Positions 319 to 60,192 of a stretch of DNA of 64,000 bases are shown here, piece by piece. Location of the stretch: NCBI RefSeq assembly GCF_949628265.1, contig NC_088790.1, positions 1,616,545-1,680,544 of the forward strand. Direction: 5' to 3'. The notes below the pieces were generated by a model that worked only from the letters and a program-made list of their open reading frames with translations, made no database searches and was not told where the DNA came from. This stretch comes from Cloeon dipterum. Its lineage: Eukaryota > Arthropoda > Insecta > Ephemeroptera > Baetidae. Each line of letters begins with the position of its first letter. Position 1 is the first letter of the stretch. The position numbers were made by a program, and so were the translations under genes.

Positions 319-953
319 CATTCATTTTGGCTACATTGCACGCCAACGTGGCTGCCGCAGCCTCTGCATTATGGATGTACGGCGAGGGGAAAGGCACGCT
401 CGCGTTCCTGAGTGACATAGTAAGGCAAATCAAGTATTAGAATAATTAACACAATTAAGACTCACCTTGGGTGGTGCAATCCAAAGCTGATACCAACCCC
501 AGATGCAGCTGCAGTGCAGTATCCAGCCGTGTACACTTTGCAGAAGCTCTTCTCGTCCGGCAAGAAACTCATTGGAATCTGCATTTCTTGGTTTCTTCGG
601 ACCAGTGGCTCCTCGGCTTGTACTTTGTCCACGCTGGCAAGGGCAGTGTAAATCGTCTGAACCTTGGCCTTCTCCACCCTGACTATTTCCTGCAAGGCTG
701 CGATACGTACTTTTGTTTCCTTTTGCTGCTGCCGCAATCTCTTCAGCCTGTTCACTCCAACACACTCGAAAACGTTTAGGACTTGCTCAGGCTGACACAT
801 GCTCGCAGTTTCCACAAAAAGATCCTTCTGCTTCTTTATTCTAACCGGGCGATGCCGTTTTTCATTCGGCTGGCCTCTAGACAAGCCTATGCCCTCTGTG
901 CCCATAGCAGCAGCAGCAGCTATTTTAGCACTACTGCTCCTCGTGCTAACCAT
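319..953 (-). CDS. RNase H1-like protein, 5' part (gene 1), catalytic Asp lost, runs off left edge
   Basis: Two coding exons are visible, 953-466 and 407-319, with a GTGAG donor at 465-461 and a CAG acceptor at 410-408; the gene should continue left of the window. The first exon begins with a basic, Ala/Ser-rich N-terminus and a predicted coiled coil around RLKRLRQQQKETKVRIAALQ. The C-terminal half reads like the start of an RNase H1 domain: VYTAGYC (family YTDGxC), SGVGISFGLHHPRNAS (family GxGVYFGxxHPxNxS) and HNAEAAAA (family NxxAEIxAA). RNase H1 cuts the RNA strand of RNA-DNA hybrids using four acids. Here the first acid is Ala, while the second (Glu of NAEA) remains; the last two lie outside the window. 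Losing the first acid predicts an inactive enzyme. The RNase H assignment is inferred by eye from motif order and from the intron positions shared with the gene starting at 1702. The start at 953 is the first Met of the open frame. Confidence 0.6.
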
Positions 954-1701
954 CCTGGAAATTTTTTCTCACCTCAATAAAAAATTCAAAGCTAAAATAT
1001 TCAATAAATTTACATAAATCGCTATTATACACATGTTACTTTCCAGTCTCATACTGGATAAAATATTACGAAACCTGATACAAAAGAGGCAATATAATTT
1101 AATTAAATTACCTTTCCCCTATTCTTTCAGGGACAGCTAGAGACGAAGGTCTTAGGTCTGACAGGAATCTTAATAGGTCTTGACGAGAATCGGCACAATC
1201 ATAACAATAACAATGGAGGAGATGAAAAATGTCTGACTGTGTCTAATGACTAATGAATTTATATGATGATGATAGTTAACTCTTGGGAGGGAAATCGGTG
1301 GGGGCGTGGCCTGGATGGTCCGTTTCCGTTCCACGCATTCTCTGTAGCCAGTTTTTATTCTTATGAAAACCGGTATGTACTTAAAACAATTTGGCTTTTT
1401 GAATTAAATCAAGAGGATTTAGTACAAATTTACAAAAAAACTCAATGAGTTGAATTTTTCATTTCAAATCACGAGTTTTGACCGCTTCAAGATCCGAAAC
1501 GTTTTCAAATTGGTACCGGTACATATATGTACGATTAAGAAAGCTTTTTTTCATTCGCTCGTCCTGTTCTTGTTCTCGTCGCTGATTGGTGCGGCTGCGG
1601 CACTGCGGCAGTCACAAAATCACAGAGCAGTCAGAGCTCACAATCAGAGCACAGTGTTGTGACACGAATTGACATAATCCTGAGCGCACTGCGAAATCGT
1701 T
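954..1701. promoter_or_regulatory. Divergent intergenic region between RNase H-like genes 1 and 2
   Basis: About 750 bases separate the two divergent start codons, so promoters of both RNase H-like genes should lie here. It includes one GGGGGCGTGGCC motif near 1300, of the type repeated through the window. I see no clear TATA box. No other gene is supported. Confidence 0.35.
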
Positions 1702-4379
1702 ATGTCGCTGTTTTCATCTCCAGGTATGCATTTTGCGCATATAATTTGCAGTAATTAGCCCTGATTTATGTTTGTTTATGCATTTTTAATGAAACAGGTA
1801 GATATTCATAAATTTTAAGAACCACGTACATCTTAGCTGTGTTTGCATAATATGCATGTAATGTACATTATGTAATAATAACTATGTAAAATATGATTGG
1901 AAAAAATTACACTTTTCGCCGCCGACAAACAGTTTTTGCCATCCATATTTTCTTATAGAATATCCTCATAAGAATTGGCAAGATGTGTAACCCGGCGGAA
2001 CAGTAATTTTTTCAATGTTTAATGTATGATTTGTATATATACAAAATATTGTAAAAGTATGGTTTTAAATTACTTTAATGATCAAATTCGAATTTTCTCA
2101 TTATATCCGTGTTTTTTCAGTCAAAACACCTGCTGGTGACACGGATGGGGGCCCGCCGTGGACGCAGGAGCCTGAGTTGGTGACTGTTGAGCCCGATTTA
2201 GTGTCAGTGGAGCCCGAGTCACATCATCAGGTGGTGCTGAGCACATCCGAGGGCTGCAGCTGGGTCTCTGAATGCCCGGCCCCGGTGCCTCTGCCCTGGT
2301 TCCTAGCCGACGAGAAACCCACGAGATCGGACAACCAGGATGCGGTGGCCGGATCGTCCAAGGCAGACTTGGGCCAGACGATCAGCATGGCAAGACTGCG
2401 TGCGGCGGAAGGCCTTGCCGCGCTGCAGAAAACCTACATCCACTTCCAGAAGAGCAGGGACGCGATCGCTCGTGTGGATGAGCCCGAAGTCGTCCTTGTC
2501 GAGGACGAGGAGCCGCAGCCGCTGCAGGAAAAGGTTGTCGAACAGCCCCAGCAGCCTGGTGACTCAGATTTGGAGGTGGTGGAGGTCACCATTGATGAGC
2601 CGGTGGCGAAGATCAACTACAAGGAGCCTGTGCATCTGGAGACACGAATGCCTGGCCCCTTACTCTCAGTCGACGACGACAAAAGCGGCGCGTGCATCGT
2701 CCACATCGATATCTACGGATGCAAGTGGCAGACTCCCCAAGTTTTGGCCGGAGTTGGTGCATTTTTCGCCTTTTGGCATCCATGGTATATAAATTGATTA
2801 TTTTTTATTTGATTTTTGCGCGGAAATATTTGAGAATAATTTTAAATAATTTTTTAATGTTATAGTCATTATTAAGAATGAATTTTTATTTTCAAGGTTT
2901 TGAAAGTTGTCAGGCGTGGATATAAATTCGCAAAATTCGGGATTTTTTGCTGCACTTTAAAAAATTCTTCTTTGAACGCGATCAACATCGCTCGACGTCA
3001 GGGTAGTGGTGTTTGAGACATTTGAAAATATGTTCAGTATAATATCACTGCTCTTAAAAAATAAGAATTAGCAAGTTGCTTATAGGCCCTCACTTAGTGT
3101 TGGAAAGCCGCCGACAGATGGCGCCACCGGTTTTCAGCACGTCAAAAGATAGCATATATATTAAGTGAAGAATGCTCAGTTTCAGGATTAAGTCTGATTA
3201 AATTGCAGCGGAAGTACCTCAAAATTAATTTTTTTTTTTTTTTAATAAATTATTCAGTCGCGGCATCTGTTGGCGACTTTCATCATAAAAAGTTAACACC
3301 AATTAACTAACTGATGTAATTAAAATTTGAATTTTTCCGTTGAGATTTAAAGGCGACAGTTGGCAAGAACTGCCAAATTTTTATTTGCCTGGCGCGCGTT
3401 GGCGGCTGGTCATTTTCACCAAGCGACATTGGCGCGGCTGACATATATTTCAACGTGTATTTTGATAGTGCTTGTTGGCCTGAAGGGCTGCAAGACATTT
3501 CCTTTGCACTTTTTAATTTCGACTCTTTTTCACCAGCGGCTGGCGTTGCTAGCGCAGCTTGGCCACATTCACGGTGGCTGGCCCGAAATACGCCGGATGT
3601 CGGTCGCGGCTGGTGAAGACCTTAAATATGTATATAAATAAAAAATCGAGGTCTCATTGTCGGCCAGCCTCGCTGCGCCGCGTAAGCCTGCAAATTTTGG
3701 ATCACGTCGTCGGCAGCCGCGCCAGCCGCCGTGAATCTGACTTAAAATTAGCTGCGCTAGCCACGCCAGCCGTGGGTAAGAAATTAAAAAGTGCAGGAGA
3801 AAGAAATGTCTCCCGACTTTTCGAGCCGTTAAATCATGATCAAACTCCACTGTCAAAATACTGTCAGCCGTGGCTGAGACCTGTAGTAAAAAATCTGGCA
3901 GTGAAATCTGAATTTTTGTTCTGTTTTTCAGCAACGTGAGCCGCGCGCTGGACTCTCGTGTGGAGTGGGACAAGGACGACGCGGCAGTCGTGGCCGCCAT
4001 CTTGGCCTGTCAACGTGCCAGAGCAGCAGGTAATTGACTTTCCATTCGCAAAACTGCCGTTTCTGATATGTTTTTTTAGGGCTGCACAAGTTGAGGATCT
4101 GCACCAGCCACAAAAAATTGAAAGGCCTGGTTAAGCGTCACCAGAGGCGCGCTGCGCCCATCGGAATCCAGACGCACCGGTCGCAGAGCATGCGACTTGC
4201 CACTCTCGGCATGCAGATCGAGTGGGTGAGTATACAAGCTCCGCCTTTAATCGCCATTTCTCACATTTTTGTCTCTGTCTCTGCTCAGACGGTCGTTTCT
4301 GCAATCTCTGCAGGCCAATGTTGCGCCTTCAAGCTCGCCTTCCAAGGAGCCCGCGACCAAGTTGGCCCCATTTGGTTGA
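1702..4379 (+). CDS. RNase H1-like pseudoenzyme, complete five-exon gene (gene 2)
   Basis: Exons 1702-1723, 2121-2784, 3932-4029, 4080-4225 and 4314-4379 join with matching phases into 331 residues, ending at TGA. Residues 1 to about 200 are acidic and Pro/Glu-rich (VEPDLVSVEPE, VVLVEDEEPQPL) and probably disordered. The last 120 residues follow RNase H1 order: IVHIDIYGC, VLAGVGAFFAFWHPWCNVS, DDAAVVAAILAC, GLHKLRICTSHKK, GMQIEWANVAPS, PATKLA. Against the family (TDG, AEI, TDS, GMDIQWxHVPGHSG, ADRLA) only the first catalytic Asp is kept; Glu is Val, the second Asp is Ser and the last Asp is Thr. The His-containing GHSG loop is also lost. The protein should therefore not cleave RNA, but the fold and perhaps nucleic-acid binding may remain. 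The frame is fully open, and a poly(A) signal AATAAA lies at 4459-4464. The intron positions in the domain match gene 1. Family assignment is inference from motifs without a search. Confidence 0.72.
3108..3286. mobile_element. Short MITE-like element with GATGGCGCC-type inverted ends
   Basis: This element of about 180 bp lies in intron 2 of the RNase H-like gene. It starts with GCCGCCGACAGATGGCGCC and ends near GGCATCTGTTGGCGAC, an imperfect inverted pair. Its interior (cagcacgtcaaaag, ttaagtgaagaatgc, ggattaagtctg) is shared with copies near 34.8 and 50.3 kb. It encodes nothing. Confidence 0.55.
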
Positions 4380-5590
4380 CTGCCGATCAGCAAGTAATTT
4401 GCTAACTCTCAATTTGATGCGGAGTCTTCTTAAACTGTGTGCTACACAGATATACTTAAATAAACGTTGTGAAATCTTAAAAAATTGACTTAATAGAAAC
4501 TAATTTAAATTTTACTTGGTATACACCGAGAAAAAGATGTTTTAAACCCTTCAAATTATGTAAGAAATATTTTCCAGTCTTTTTCTTGCAGATCAGAATA
4601 AAATCCTTGTGTTCGAATAGCATCTATAGGAGAAGTTTCAAGATCTCACGACTCAATTAGCATGGCACCTGAATGAAGGATGAAGAGGTTGAAGGAAAAA
4701 ATATTTACTGAACAATATTAGATCCCACCTTTTTCCCACAATTTATTAAGCAAACATGGTTGAAAACAAAAAGATGTTTTATTTATTGCTGTTCAGAATA
4801 TTTTCAATTTCACATTATTGAATTATTGTTCATCTTGATTAAATGAAAATTATAAAAAATCCAGGATATCGGAGAATGCTGTAGAACCATATGCCAAATC
4901 CAGAGGTTGAAATTATACCTATACAGAGGAATTAAAAAACAGGCTTTAGGGATCCTCTCACTAACTAAAAACGAATATTTTTGAAAATTAAATTGGACGT
5001 AAGCACAGCTGTTTGACACCTGGTTGGCCACTTGCTAGGCAGCAGCAGCAGCGAATTAGCTTCGCGGGAGTGCGGAACGTTAATAATTTTTCTATGGTTA
5101 CGCTCACTTTCTGCTTGATTATTCTTGTCTCTGGAGATTATAGACCTAGTACCTTGACTACCTGATTTGGCTCAGCCTGACACTCGACATACCTGTACCT
5201 GTGGAAGGTCTCGCCCTATGTCAAAGGGTAAGTTATATGTATGTTATCGCAATCGCAGGCCGAGGCGCCGGCAGGAGTGATCCTATAATTTACGCATCCA
5301 TTCGTTTATTTCTGATTTTTCTCTTTTGAGAGCTGATCGCAAAAATTGAATGATATGATACAAAAAACATTACATTACATTATGGGGGTTGTAAATTTAC
5401 CACCGAAACATAAAATTTGCATAAAATCATGCAATTTGACTATTTTTTCCAGAGCAGCGGTATATTAGCCGGTATACAGGAAGAGCCCTTGACAAAGTTT
5501 GAGAAGATGGGCGAGAAAGTAAAGCGCAAAAAAGACGTTCCTAAGGAGCAAAAAAAGGCAACATAAGATAAGAGGTTGGTAAAAAGCAGC
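4380..5590. other. Intergenic region between RNase H-like genes 2 and 3
   Basis: This is AT-rich sequence with the poly(A) signal of gene 2 near its start and a short CAG run near 5040. A first exon for the degenerate copy downstream would be expected here, but I could not find a convincing one. Confidence 0.3.
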
Positions 5591-5599
5591 GTGTGGTGC

Positions 5600-6136
5600 T
5601 GCCGGCGCCCGGGTCCCCTTTTCTTCGAACCCGCTACTGGCGCCTGCACCGTCCACATAGAGGTTTTCTGCAGAGACTGGCAATCCTCGCAACTCGTGGC
5701 TGGCGTCGGCGCCTTTTTTTCTTTTTTTTTTCTTTTCGCAGTGTAATTTGAGCCAGGCACTAGACCCGCGTTTGCGCGCTATAGAACGCCAAGGCCACAG
5801 GTTGGCCGAGAATTTTGCGTACCTGCGATCTACTGGACAACATTTTGCAATTTTTATTTTGCAGGCCTGTACAAACTTGATCTGCACACACTGGAGCAGG
5901 AGGCTCAGGGTTGCTATTAACCGTCACCGCAGGGGTGCTCCACTCGGGGGCATGCAGCCGCTTCTCTCCCCCAACGTGAGGGAGGTATATTTTCGGGGCT
6001 GGATATTCCGTGGGTGAGATTGCTCCTCCCCTTTTTCATTGACCGCCATTTTTAATTTTTGTATTTTCCCTAAAGCCGCGTGCCTCATGTCTCTCCTTCA
6101 AACGGGCATTCGAAGGAGCCCAGCACTCCGGATTAA
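5600..6136 (+). pseudogene. Degenerate RNase H-like copy (gene 3)
   Basis: This stretch repeats the C-terminal half of the gene at 1702-4379. PGPLFFEPATGACTVHIEVF matches its PGPLLSVDDDKSGACIVHID. VAGVGAF, CNLSQALDPRL and RHRRGAPLG follow, and SKEPST matches SKEPAT before the stop at 6134-6136. The first catalytic position is Glu instead of Asp. The intron after VGAF is reduced to a poly-pyrimidine run (about 5711-5741). The next intron has no usable donor in phase. Two reading frames alternate in the fourth exon: LYKL and GLDIPW lie in one frame, RHRRGAPLG in another. A continuous frame does exist from 5742 to 6013, splicing in phase to 6076, if the small intron is retained, so expression cannot be excluded. 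No start or first exon was found. A decayed tandem duplicate is the best reading. Confidence 0.6.
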
Positions 6137-6470
6137 CTGTGTAAAATTGTCACTTACAGTTGTTGAAAATGTTTATTATTACGTGTTTTATTAGAGAGAC
6201 ATATATAATGAGGATATTGTTACACAAATTTACACGCCGCCAACAAATAAATCGAGAACAGTAGTAGCGCGGAAGCAGATAAAATTTATTAAAAAACGGC
6301 CTTTTCTTGCCGAAGAAAGTTATCTGGGTCAATAAGCAGAAAACGCTTTTTCATCCTACACCTCATTCTTTGGTCCAGCGAACGCGGCCGCTTTTGTTTC
6401 TGCGCCTGGTGCGATTGCATCTGAACATTTTCGACTAAGAATTCTCATTGTTTTGCACTACTAAATTTTC

Positions 6471-8743: not shown

Positions 8744-9298
8744 TTTTTGATTCATCCTATAAAATTTAAATCCATCAGAGAAGTAATTTTCTAATTCTTG
8801 AGAGGGTAATGTATTGTTGATTAAAAACATTTCACATTAAGTTAATTTCCCTCCTAATGGAATAGCAATGAGGTAGAAAATAAGACATGCTAAGCTGATA
8901 CCACTTCTTTTCATTTACCAAAAGGACACTAGTTAACGAAACACTTTTCTCAAGCATTATACAGCAGCTCTTTTCAACTTCAAGGATGTATATTGTTGAC
9001 TTAACCTACGGTGTGAGTAATATATTTTATAGGTTTAAGCTGCGTGTTAGAAAGTGGAGTGTTCTACTCCAAAGGGGCGAAGGTTAATTTTGATCATTGT
9101 CTTCCAAATTCGATGGGTTGGAAGCTCAATTGAATTTCATGATAGCAATAGTTAAATTTCTTACCCAACTAATTTTTTGAGGTTTTAATTACTTTCATTT
9201 CTGTTAGACGGAAGAGGGAGAGAAGAAACAGCAAAAATCGAGGTCATCGTGCAGGTGAAATGGGACAATAGAACAGTAATAACGCAAAATGAACGCAA

Positions 9299-10544
9299 AT
9301 GAAACCTTTTTTCAGTTTCTGCATCCGCATCACTCTCGTTGCCCTCCTGATAATTTTGCTAATCATTGCGATCACCACCACCCTTTCCTTTTTCCTAGGC
9401 AAAGCTGGTAAGTTAATTGGATGGCATATATCCATATGCACGTTATATCCTTTATAATATATTTATGTATGTGTGCATTTGACAGAGATCGATCATAAGG
9501 GACGAAACAATTCAGATCCAACAACTCAGAGCCCAACATCAACGACGACAACTACAACCACCATCACCACCCCACCACCACCAACAATCACCCCCAAACA
9601 GCCCCCAACAACAACCCCATCACCACCCCCAACAACAACAACCACAAAAACAAGCACCACGCCACCAACAACCACAAAAACAACCACACCACCACCACCA
9701 CTACCGCCAACATTTAACGTCATGATTTCCATTAACAACGACGAGAGGTTTTGTGGTGGATCGCTCATTAAGAAAAATAGAGTGCTGACTGCTCGACAAT
9801 GCTGCATGGGGTGAGTTGGCCACAGAAATATAGAAATTGACGAAATTGACAAACTTTTGTCATAATTTTAGAGCAAACACATTCACTATCTTCCTTGGCG
9901 GTATTGACGAACCCAGCCGGCAGATTGGCAAGTCGACTATATGCAAGACACACGAGAGTAATAGATTGGACGACGGTGTCTGCGTTATTAACCTAGACGC
10001 TCCAGTTTCTGGCGAGGGCCTCAGGACCATCCGCATGCCATCTTGGTCTATGCGCCCAGAAACCTATGAAAGATATAAAGCTACCATCTCTGGCTGGGAA
10101 CGCACTTCAAATGGTACCAAAATTCCTGTTGGTGATTACCAGGGGACAAAAATTTTAATTCCCAACTTGCCTGTTTAGATGTTACCTCTAACACTCGGCT
10201 TATCTACACTGACGTCTTCGTCAACGAAAAGAAAATTTGCAAATCGATTTACCCTAATGTGAGCACTGAAAAGACAATTTGCACGTACGACACAAACGGA
10301 TCCGACGATTGCGGTGTACGCTTTATTCGCTTTTTGCTCCTTAAAATGTATTTACAAATTTTGTCAACAGGGATACGTCGGCGACCCCCTCACCATCACT
10401 GAATCTGACGGAGTGGAGACCCAAATTGGAATCGCCAGCTTTGGTCCTCACACAGAAGCAGAGTGCCACAGCGAAACTGGTTATCCCGACGGCTTCGTCA
10501 GAGTCACATCTTACTCTCCCTTGATCAATATTTGGAGTGACTGA
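9299..10544 (+). CDS. Membrane-anchored serine protease homologue, catalytically dead
   Basis: Exons 9299-9407, 9486-9810, 9872-10113, 10179-10315 and 10371-10544 join in phase into 328 residues. The N-terminus (MKPFFSFCIRITLVALLIIL) is a hydrophobic signal-anchor. Then comes a Thr/Pro-rich, mucin-like linker (about residues 45-115), followed by an S1 trypsin-like domain. The domain keeps FCGGSLIKKNRVLTA, two Cys after the His site, SGW and the late PLTITESDGV core. All three catalytic residues are replaced: TAAHCC is TARQCC (His to Gln), NDI is DGV (Asp to Gly), and GDSGGP is GYVGDP (Ser to Val). The activation motif IVGG is missing, because the linker runs straight into FNVMISIN. It should therefore be a non-enzymatic type II membrane binding protein. 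The triad-bearing gene at 15136-16765 is its closest neighbour-paralogue (shared PLTITESDGV and intron phases). The start is the Met directly before the hydrophobic stretch. Confidence 0.75.
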
Positions 10545-10929
10545 GATATCCGCCCTTAATGCTCTGTCAAGGATCGTTTTGTAATGAATCAAATTATCCA
10601 CATTGCTAACTTTTGAAATATCATTTGACTAACCCTTGCATCAGTTTTTAACTTATAAAGTTAGGAGCATATTTCTCTCTATAGAGAGCGAGTATCTGTT
10701 ACTCTAAATTCACCCTGTGTATTTGCCAAGTCACGTGATTTTTAACCGTCTATTTTATCATCTGGATTAATTAAAATGAGAAAAAATACATTAATTGTTT
10801 AACAAATGTCATAATGTGGTAATTTGTTATTACTTTAGGAGACTTTCCAAAACAATAATCTATCTGTTTGTGAGGTGATAACAAGAGTAAATGTTTCTCT
10901 ACATTGTCGGTCTGAAATTGAGAAATTCA

Positions 10930-26917: not shown

Positions 26918-59228
<32,311 letters not shown>

Positions 59229-59248
59229 TGTCCCTTTTGATCCATCAG

Positions 59249-60192
59249 CTGAAACAAACGCTGCCTCCGCTGGCTGGCTCCCTGCTGCTGCAGCTCACCT
59301 TATCCGCTCGGGGTGCAGGCGGCCGGCATGGCGTCGTTATCTCATTCCGTCGGCAAGGGCCCGGATCTAATTGCTCCTCGCTCTCGCACTCTCGTTCGCA
59401 CCAACCAAGGGCAGCCGACTAAAAACACTCGCACCAGCCGCCCAGCACCAGCAGCCTCGCTTGCCTTTGCTGCTTCGCTCACCTCCAAGCTGTTCTTTCA
59501 CCTCCCCTTCCCCTCGAACGGATTCCGAGTGAGACGAGCGGCCGACCTCTGGCTTCCTCTTCCCGCCGTCTCGAGGCGCCACCAAATTAACTCACAAAAT
59601 TCTTATTCGCAACGCCAGCAAATGCCAGCTGCGAATTAATATTTTGACGAAGCGAATTTTTTTATTTTTTCACAATGTATTTGGACGGAGTCAGGACGGA
59701 GTGGAAGGAACATCAATATTTTTATTCAAAAAAACACGCGAATCGCGTCTGGAGATCTGGTGTAAGCCACTTGCATATTCATTTGACAGATGGCAGCTCC
59801 GTTGAGGAAAATTGATATTCTGGCTACCAACCACCACCAACCAAACAAGGAGTGAAATTCGCAGGGAAGAATTTTGCTTTAACACTAACACAGAGTCTAA
59901 AATCACTCAGCATTTTCAAACTGCTTTACCCATTTATTCTGTATTAAAATTAAATTTCATCCCTTTCGCTTTATATTCCACGTAAAATTGTAATTTTTTG
60001 CAGCAGTGCTGGTCCTTCTCGGTTGGCTGCACTGACGTAATTCATTTTCCTGCGCATCGCGTGTTGTTTACATGGAAATTCACACGCAGTTTCACGTTTC
60101 TAGCTAAGATTTTCGTTGTTCTTTTTAATTGGAAAGAGATTTGAATCAAGCAGATCACTTATTTGCCGTTTGATTTGCTATAACGAGTGAAA
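59249..60192. promoter_or_regulatory. Head-to-head region between DYRK2-type kinase and ZCCHC10
   Basis: This is under 1 kb between divergently read genes. The part next to the kinase (to about 59580) is GC-rich and may hold its 5' untranslated exon or promoter. The part next to ZCCHC10 is AT-rich. Shared regulation is possible; no specific factor sites were identified. Confidence 0.4.

Follow-up and report, generated by a model that had tools for sequence, protein, structure and literature searches.

The standard enzyme for the removal of RNA from RNA-DNA hybrids is RNase H1, whose catalytically dead form serves as a laboratory tool. Does the genome of the insect Cloeon dipterum hold disarmed forms of its own? 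The question is raised by the start of the window, that is, the whole analysed stretch of 64,000 nucleotides (NC_088790.1, positions 1,616,545 to 1,680,544). In the initial annotation, three RNase H1-like pieces were noticed here and proposed to be a local family of pseudoenzymes. These pieces are indeed present, and their descent from RNase H1 is supported by profiles and shared introns. With moderate confidence, sequence comparison points to a lineage-specific RNase H1 pseudoenzyme family, in which the fold is kept, and the active site and the hybrid-reading surface are lost.

Family organization and gene models

The RNase H1-derived family, genes 1-3 of the window included, lies at two places in the 190-Mb genome, named here C3 and C5. 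The C3 array holds M5 and M1, with a full active site, and the inactive M2-M4. The C5 cluster is scattered and partly inverted; it is made up of gene 0, genes 1-3, the inverted 2' and 3', gene 4' and fragments. By sequence, the full active site is found in two genes (M5 and M1) and is absent from nine open-looking ones. M5 is laid out as a hybrid-binding domain (HBD), a long linker and a catalytic domain, and the inactive genes would have arisen via duplication of such an M5-like gene.

Three intron positions with their phases (2, 1, 0) are common to all ten models (M1-M5 and genes 0, 1, 2, 2' and 3'); gene 4', which has no base-level model and is open in pieces, was excluded from this count. 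In all eight inactive genes for which exons with GT-AG borders were modelled, the frame stays open through every domain exon to the stop, the openness at the joints arising by construction since splice sites were picked using homology and an open frame. The family's weakest member is gene 4', whose exon pieces singly reached E 0.24, 0.25 and 1.5; a search with it as the query matched only itself. Further pieces at C5:1603210 (E 0.00013), C5:1594930 (E 0.016) and C5:2074343-2074435 (E 3.9e-4) are incomplete or decayed; a complete model was not possible, and they are therefore outside all counts. Weak matches off both loci, at C2:21994143 (E 0.58), C1:32916950 (E 0.37) and C2:3448268 (E 0.30), were judged to be chance.

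The features of the window genes are collected in Table 1. The last two exons of gene 1 sit 0.4-0.7 kb beyond the window edge; its joined frame is open to the stop, with an AATAAA behind it. Gene 2 has five exons, all with GT-AG borders. The open five-exon frame and poly(A) signal described initially hold good, and the length is 348 residues instead of 331. Its intron 4 could also be retained because it is in frame and stop-free.

Table 1. Features of the RNase H1-like genes at the window start (positions of the window unless prefixed by C5)
Feature	Position	Strand	Remarks
Gene 1 exon 1	466..953	-	N-terminal extension and first strands of RNase H-like domain; ATG at 953, donor GT after 466
Gene 1 exon 2	319..407	-	E186 kept; intron phases match canonical gene
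Gene 1 exon 3	C5:1616110-1615971	-	outside window; profile match E 0.019
Gene 1 exon 4	C5:1615909-1615823	-	outside window; chosen by eye, guided by phase, splice sites and likeness
Segment with genes 2 and 3	1184..6200	.	present again, inverted and with insertions, inside C5:2072751-2065213; blastn 94.0, 89.5 and 83.4% in three blocks
Gene 2 exon 1	1702..1723	+	start codon
Gene 2 exon 2	2121..2784	+	N-terminal part, acidic, plus opening strands of RNase H-like domain; D145 retained
Gene 2 exon 3	3932..4029	+	E186 to Ala
Gene 2 exon 4	4080..4225	+	D210 to Ser; basic stretch; W221 lost
Gene 2 intron 4	4226..4288	+	63 bases
Gene 2 exon 5 and stop codon	4289..4405	+	H264 to Ile, D274 to Phe
Gene 2 polyadenylation signal	4459..4464	+	AATAAA
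Gene 3	about 5461-6136	+	decayed RNase H1-like copy (pseudogene)

Descent from RNase H1

As a single phmmer query, gene 2 reached only E 0.18, and a Pfam scan of genes 1 and 2 gave no RNase H match; the link to RNase H1 thus needed profiles and paralogues. All eight inactive domains match a profile of human RNase H1, M5 and M1, with 27.3 (gene 4') to 122.0 bits (M2), part of these scores being again by construction on account of the way in which splice sites were picked. In the control of 500 shuffles for each domain, the best score was at most 11.7 bits, with 17-97 of each 500 unscored. The gene 2 domain scored 37.2 bits against this profile, and the best of its 500 shuffles 7.1. Inside the family, leave-one-out scores were 53-147 bits, and a profile of C5 members only matches human RNase H1 (E 2.6e-7) in the first half (positions 5-77 of 128). 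A homology search with six inactive members reached E 1.9e-16, with eukaryotic RNase H1 as the best match; for M5 and M1, it reached E 1.3e-36 and 2.2e-37. Further, M2 matches PF00075 with 40.7 bits, and its N-terminal piece matches PF01693 with 50.2 bits.

Loss of catalytic and hybrid-contact residues

The loss of catalytic residues was confirmed by alignment. The D-E-D-D set and the His are kept in 3 of 40 cells in eight inactive members, while M5 and M1 keep all of them. Of the other residues that human RNase H1, M5 and M1 share, the eight inactive domains keep 180 of 384 cells (Fisher p 3.6e-7, the rows being related and the p value only a guide). Gene 2', being a near-copy of gene 2, stands outside these counts, and the gene 0 domain used in them stops one residue short of its stop. 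At the fold-core positions, 162 of 208 cells hold a hydrophobic or small residue.

In gene 1, the residues are D145A, E186 kept, D210S, H264N and D274F, in agreement with the Ala at the first site and the retained Glu of the initial annotation. Gene 2 keeps D145 and carries E186A, D210S, H264I and D274F; the first Asp and the Ser had been read correctly, whereas the alignment replaces the reported Val and Thr by Ala and Phe. The Glu at the first catalytic site of gene 3 agrees with the sequence as well. Genes 2 and 3' both have D274F and the same shortened handle, and they probably split after catalysis was lost. In the family tree, one of the eight inner branches is starred, so single and multiple losses of catalysis are not separated.

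The substrate-contact residues are kept in 7 of 72 cells in the eight inactive members, with 7 gaps scored as lost. The list used for this count includes R179, T181, F213, W225, S233 and N240, which we take to be hybrid contacts. Among the hybrid-reading residues, N151 is kept in 0/8, N182 in 1/8 and W221 in 0/8 inactive members. N151 and N182 are described as hybrid-contact residues of RNase H1 in PMC7657459, and W221 in PMC8960830. By these alignments, the structural core of the inactive members is kept better than their metal-binding and hybrid-reading residues.

N-terminal parts

The N-terminal parts vary widely among members. Acidic extensions had been put forward as a family trait; this does not extend beyond gene 2, whose N-terminal part has a net charge of -21, the other four of the five C5 members tested having +3 to +35. 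In a search of the own genome, an HBD (PF01693) was located only beside M5, M2 and M4, and none was found for the C5 members or the active-looking M1, where an HBD split by an intron could escape. Human W43 is replaced by His and Arg in M2 and M4.

A heptad test on segments chosen by eye covered M5, M2-M4 and genes 0-2, with M1 outside it. The observed signal was equalled by 0, 3, 3, 6 and 10 of 1000 shuffles in M5, M2, M4, M3 and gene 0, and it was weak in gene 1 (68/1000) and gene 2 (88/1000). Windows with proline were skipped, so that genes 3' and 4' gave no score. A family-wide coiled coil was not upheld in this test.

Possible roles of the inactive proteins

The old RNase H1 fold may have been put to a different use. 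The proteins would act as non-catalytic modules: the folded domain would offer a platform for binding, and oligomerisation or targeting would come from the variable N-terminal part (in M2-M4 and gene 0, a helix of heptad type). The likeliest targets would be protein partners, active RNase H1 among them, or nucleic acid on a basic surface, rather than hybrids recognised in the canonical manner.

It is conceivable, if doubtful, that the inactive proteins are regulatory subunits, which join active M5 via the helix ahead of the domain and inhibit, stabilise or target it. The presence of a heptad-type helix before the RNase H domain in M5, M2, M3, M4 and gene 0 is in line with this, but the heptads are weak in genes 1 and 2, genes 3' and 4' gave no score, and the N-terminal parts differ much. 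A broader and speculative proposal, to which we give little credence, is that the pseudoenzymes hetero-oligomerise with the two active enzymes or mutually, and control hybrid removal or serve a new nucleic-acid- or protein-binding task. If so, RNase H1 would be no lone enzyme but a system in which active subunits are joined by disarmed ones.

The initial annotation suggested that the proteins could bind RNA-DNA hybrids without cutting. As natural dead RNase H1 proteins, the family members would shield or mark R-loops, like the engineered D210N. They share fold family and descent with RNase H1, M2 and M4 keep a recognisable HBD, and the gene 2 domain has a net charge of +10 vs +5 for M5. Moreover, an archaeal RNase HI is active although it has neither the basic protrusion nor the catalytic His (PMC9719913), and fly RNase H1 keeps just two of the four HBD residues needed in human (PMC7657459). 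This idea is nevertheless weakened, and we regard it as unlikely, because the hybrid-reading residues are mostly lost, the HBD is limited to M5, M2 and M4, and the tryptophan is replaced in the latter two. The W43A mutation of this tryptophan is reported to compromise binding (PMC10639055).

Selection and decay

Another explanation is that these are ordinary decaying duplicates of RNase H1, recent and old pseudogenes without function. This is accepted for gene 3 of the window, which had been taken as a member gene. It is disabled by an in-frame stop, the end of its first domain exon is gone along with the donor, and the next exon is partly missing; its counterpart 3' (C5:2066415-2065268), 0.44 Mb away, has open domain exons. 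The three incomplete C5 pieces fit decay too. For the open genes, it is rejected as distinctly improbable: the eight modelled inactive genes run to their stops and gene 4' is open in pieces, purifying selection is found in three comparisons, and at the observed distances frames would be unlikely to stay free of stops in the absence of selection. In a neutral simulation without indels, set to 0.43 changes per site, 155 codons escaped stops in 0.55% of 2000 runs.

Between genes 2 and 2', 10 of 1046 coding bases differ, vs 56 of 1641 in introns (p 3.1e-5); the coding sequence has no indel, and the introns have 10 indel events. The coding differences comprise 4 changes among 801 nonsynonymous sites and 6 among 243 synonymous sites (p 0.013). 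Their low divergence is partly due to gene conversion, since intron 2 differs by 2.4% and intron 1 by 6.6%. For the other two pairs, with dS among distinct paralogues near saturation and for many pairs not computable, dN was 0.43 and dS 1.67 for gene 2 vs gene 3' (p 3e-9), and 0.49 and 1.20 for M2 vs M4 (p 6e-5). As read from paralogues of one genome, the three comparisons show purifying selection on the coding sequence, and several inactive relatives seem to be kept by selection. In the pair of genes 2 and 3', selection would have gone on after catalysis was lost. The divergence pattern of gene 2 with 2' and its dN and dS with 3' are signs in favour of the suggestion that it is kept up in the absence of catalysis. 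The two marks of a pseudoenzyme, catalytic loss and signs of maintenance, are both found here, the latter in three paralogue pairs of a single genome.

Known systems

In RNase H domain homology, order of motifs and descent, the family agrees with human RNASEH1 and Drosophila rnh1, and the HBD-linker-catalytic layout of eukaryotic RNase H1 recurs in M5. Drosophila has a single RNase H1 gene (PMC6433063), whereas this genome has two full-site genes and nine open-looking ones without the site. The catalytically dead D210N RNase H1 is an engineered R-loop probe (PMC10639055). D210 is replaced in both, but the probe has one residue changed, while the family is also without most of the listed hybrid-contact residues.

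Reuse of an RNase H-fold nuclease domain without catalysis has a precedent in TEFM, which is a single conserved gene. This mitochondrial transcription factor has a core of the pseudonuclease kind (PMC9950373) and offers a precedent for a clamp role; its RuvC-type domain carries a helix-hairpin-helix motif, whereas the family is RNase H1-type. In a literature search, with most subscription papers outside its scope, no such disarmed RNase H1 family was described in the titles and abstract starts of the papers listed, in keeping with the initial annotation, which knew of none. This genome, in which two active-looking genes are accompanied by about nine disarmed paralogues, would show a natural non-catalytic use of the fold, and the family offers proteins in which evolution separated catalysis, hybrid reading and folding.

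The tether/connection domains of LTR retroelement reverse transcriptases are degenerate RNase H domains without active-site acids. These domains are parts of a polyprotein, whereas the family consists of apparently free-standing, intron-containing genes. Capture of the domains from retrotransposons and not from a cellular gene, to which the degenerate RNase H domains of LTR elements and the interspersed repeats near both clusters might lend some colour, is scarcely credible, as it is contradicted by the three introns, whose positions and phases recur in the RNase H1 genes of this genome, and the HBD of M2 and M4 and the best match to eukaryotic RNase H1 also speak against it.

RNase H1-like genes at two loci

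The window lies at C5:1616545-1680544 in a genome of 190 Mb and 10 contigs. This genome was searched with gene 2, M5, gene 1 (as a partial and as a complete model), g0, M2, g4', g3', PF00075 and PF01693. The matches lie in two places, an array of RNase H1-type genes on contig C3 (M1 to M5) and a set on C5 that includes genes 1 to 3 of the window, along with three matches elsewhere at E 0.3-0.6, which were taken as chance. The number of family genes is a lower bound, as the search scores just its best candidates.

Members of the RNase H1-like family and neighbouring sequences (g2' and g3' are inverted copies of genes 2 and 3)
Feature	Location	Strand	Description
C3 array	C3:18065-18085 kb	-	five genes, M1-M5
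M1	C3:18065034-18066067	-	active-site residues 5/5
M2, M3, M4	C3 array	-	active-site residues 0/5 each
M5	C3 array	-	active-site residues 5/5; hybrid-binding domain with its tryptophan; long linker
g0	C5:1607285-1608704	+	C5 member
g1, g2, broken g3	start of window, C5		C5 members
g2', g3', g4'	C5 2060-2072 kb	opposite strand	C5 members
g4'	C5:2063282-2062164		long Lys/Pro-rich N-terminal part with internal repeats, then degenerate RNase H-like domain
Family pieces	C5:1603210, 1594930, 2074343-2074435
Serine-protease-like sequence	window 8744-10687	+	PF00089 match at 9473-9814
Serine-protease-like sequence	C5:2076501-2095917		beside the second segment copy
Protein kinase exons	window 28699-29100 and 57032-59294	-	PF00069

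The initial annotation had placed three RNase H1-like genes in the window; two of them are open and the third is a pseudogene. In gene 2, GT-AG introns separate five exons that encode 348 residues. Gene 1 has two exons inside the window and two more 0.4-0.7 kb before the window's first base; exon 3 is a profile match at E 0.019, and exon 4 was a manual choice guided by phase, splice sites and similarity. Once joined, the four exons give an uninterrupted frame between ATG and stop, and AATAAA follows. The window copy of gene 3 is damaged. Genes 1 and 2 point away from each other, and their start codons lie about 750 bases apart (window 953-1702), so a promoter region may be common to both. The last intron of gene 2 (window 4226-4288) is 63 bases long, in frame and free of stops; a form retaining it would thus also be translatable.

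Searched on its own, gene 2 is difficult to assign. Its top phmmer match in the Protein Data Bank was human RNase H1 at only E 0.18, and gene 2, g0 and g3' had no match in Pfam; M2 passes the PF00075 cut-off on its own, and M3 and M4 fall slightly under it. With profiles, the RNase H1 identity of gene 2 is clear. Against a profile built from human RNase H1, M5 and M1 only, the eight inactive domains scored 122.0 (M2), 88.5 (M3), 85.2 (M4), 49.0 (g1), 44.1 (g3'), 39.3 (g0), 37.2 (g2) and 27.3 bits (g4'), the best of 500 shuffles per protein reaching at most 11.7 bits, though homology had guided the joining of the exons, which favours these scores. A profile of C5 members (g0, part of g1, g2, g3') listed RNase H1 chains only, matched along its first half (E 2.6e-7 to 6.6e-7), and one of six inactive members (g0, g2, g3', M2, M3, M4) met RNase H1 at 1.9e-16 over almost its full length. 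The gene structure agrees, since three intron sites in the domain, of phases 2, 1 and 0, are the same in M1-M5, g0, g1, g2, g2' and g3'. The proposed RNase H1 descent is thus upheld. The least certain member is g4', which is compatible with the same exon pieces, singly scoring only E 0.24-1.5 and with borders that are approximate rather than set base by base.

Loss of the active site

In one alignment with human RNase H1, whose numbering is used here, the eight inactive members have retained 3 of the 40 catalytic residues, namely D145 (g0, g2) and E186 (g1), which bears out the loss noticed initially. Other residues common to human, M5 and M1 are kept in 180 of 384 cases. G159, G161, N171, A189, A190, A193 and A277 are kept in all eight, and K198, T209 and L276 in seven. 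Core positions are hydrophobic or small in 162/208 cells and identical in 129/208. The genes are filed as RNase H1 members by descent, not as enzymes.

The hybrid contacts were followed at nine positions, among them R179, T181, F213, W225, S233 and N240. The other three come from the literature: N151 and N182 are named as hybrid-binding residues (PMC7657459), and W221 as the residue that stacks on DNA (PMC8960830). Contacts survive in 7 of 72 cells; seven of the lost cells are gaps, and the alignment of the handle region is uncertain, above all in g0, g1 and g4'.

Probable maintenance without catalysis

Window segment 1184-6200 is present again, inverted, about 0.45 Mb away. Between gene 2 and g2', 10 of 1046 coding bases differ with no indel, as against 56 of 1641 bases and 10 indel events in the four introns (Fisher, 3.1e-5 for substitutions and 0.0086 for indels). 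Of those ten coding differences, four change an amino acid (4/801 nonsynonymous against 6/243 synonymous sites, p 0.013). The divergence is patchy (upstream 52/504, intron 1 26/394, intron 2 27/1134), suggesting that gene conversion has acted on the middle part; despite it, exons 2-4 (5/908) differ less than intron 2 (p 0.0009).

Gene 2 and g3' form an older pair with dN 0.43 and dS 1.67 in the domain, and M2 and M4, both E186Q, give dN 0.49 and dS 1.20, values of dS above 1 being rough and dS saturated for many of the 36 pairs. Gene 2 and g3' share Phe274 and an identically shortened handle, so activity had probably been lost by the time of their common ancestor, and any later constraint would be constraint without catalysis. 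Position 274 is also Phe in g1, so a parallel change is possible. Taken together, the low coding change and the dN of the older pair favour the suggestion that gene 2 is maintained without catalysis.

Possible roles of the inactive members

It had also been proposed that such proteins could bind RNA-DNA hybrids without cutting them. The few contacts kept speak against this, as do the His or Arg that replace the tryptophan in the hybrid-binding domain of M2 and M4, a domain otherwise kept in outline (M2, 50.2 bits); W43A is reported to compromise binding (PMC10639055). However, fly RNase H1 keeps just two of the four hybrid-binding-domain residues needed in human (PMC7657459), and the basic protrusion and His are both absent from an active archaeal RNase HI (PMC9719913). 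Hybrid binding is therefore weakened and no more. The engineered dead RNase H1 carries a single residue change, whereas here the cutting site has gone together with most of the surface that reads the hybrid. The fold core has been retained, a pattern that fits a binding scaffold better than a hybrid clamp. Judged from sequence, most weight goes to a protein-binding or regulatory role over canonical hybrid binding.

A regulatory function is plausible for the stretch that precedes the domain, since the long linker of Drosophila RNase H1 modulates activity (PMC7657459). A heptad-type helix is predicted there in M5, M2, M4, M3 and g0 (matched by 0, 3, 3, 6 and 10 of 1000 shuffles); the signal is weak in g1 (68) and g2 (88), and g3' and g4' are unscorable.

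Pseudonucleases with an RNase H fold are known, TEFM being one (PMC9950373); the present case would be a set of several RNase H1 pseudoenzyme genes that have introns in common, of which no description was found in the literature searched.

For M1, which looks active, no hybrid-binding domain was found in the own-genome searches, and M5 has one. It is possible that nuclear and mitochondrial roles are split between them, the fly covering both with one gene.

Neighbouring sequences

Adjoining the C3 array, near 18063.8 kb (+), is a small secreted-peptide frame that resembles eclosion hormone. Together with the make-up of the genes, it points to an arthropod. Serine-protease-like sequences, with 67-81% DNA likeness, adjoin both copies of the duplicated segment, and an older duplicated block may thus be common to both regions. 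The N-terminal kinase piece at window 58563-59294 had no match in Pfam but resembles a DYRK-type kinase. Should the kinase exons form a single gene, its length would be about 30 kb.
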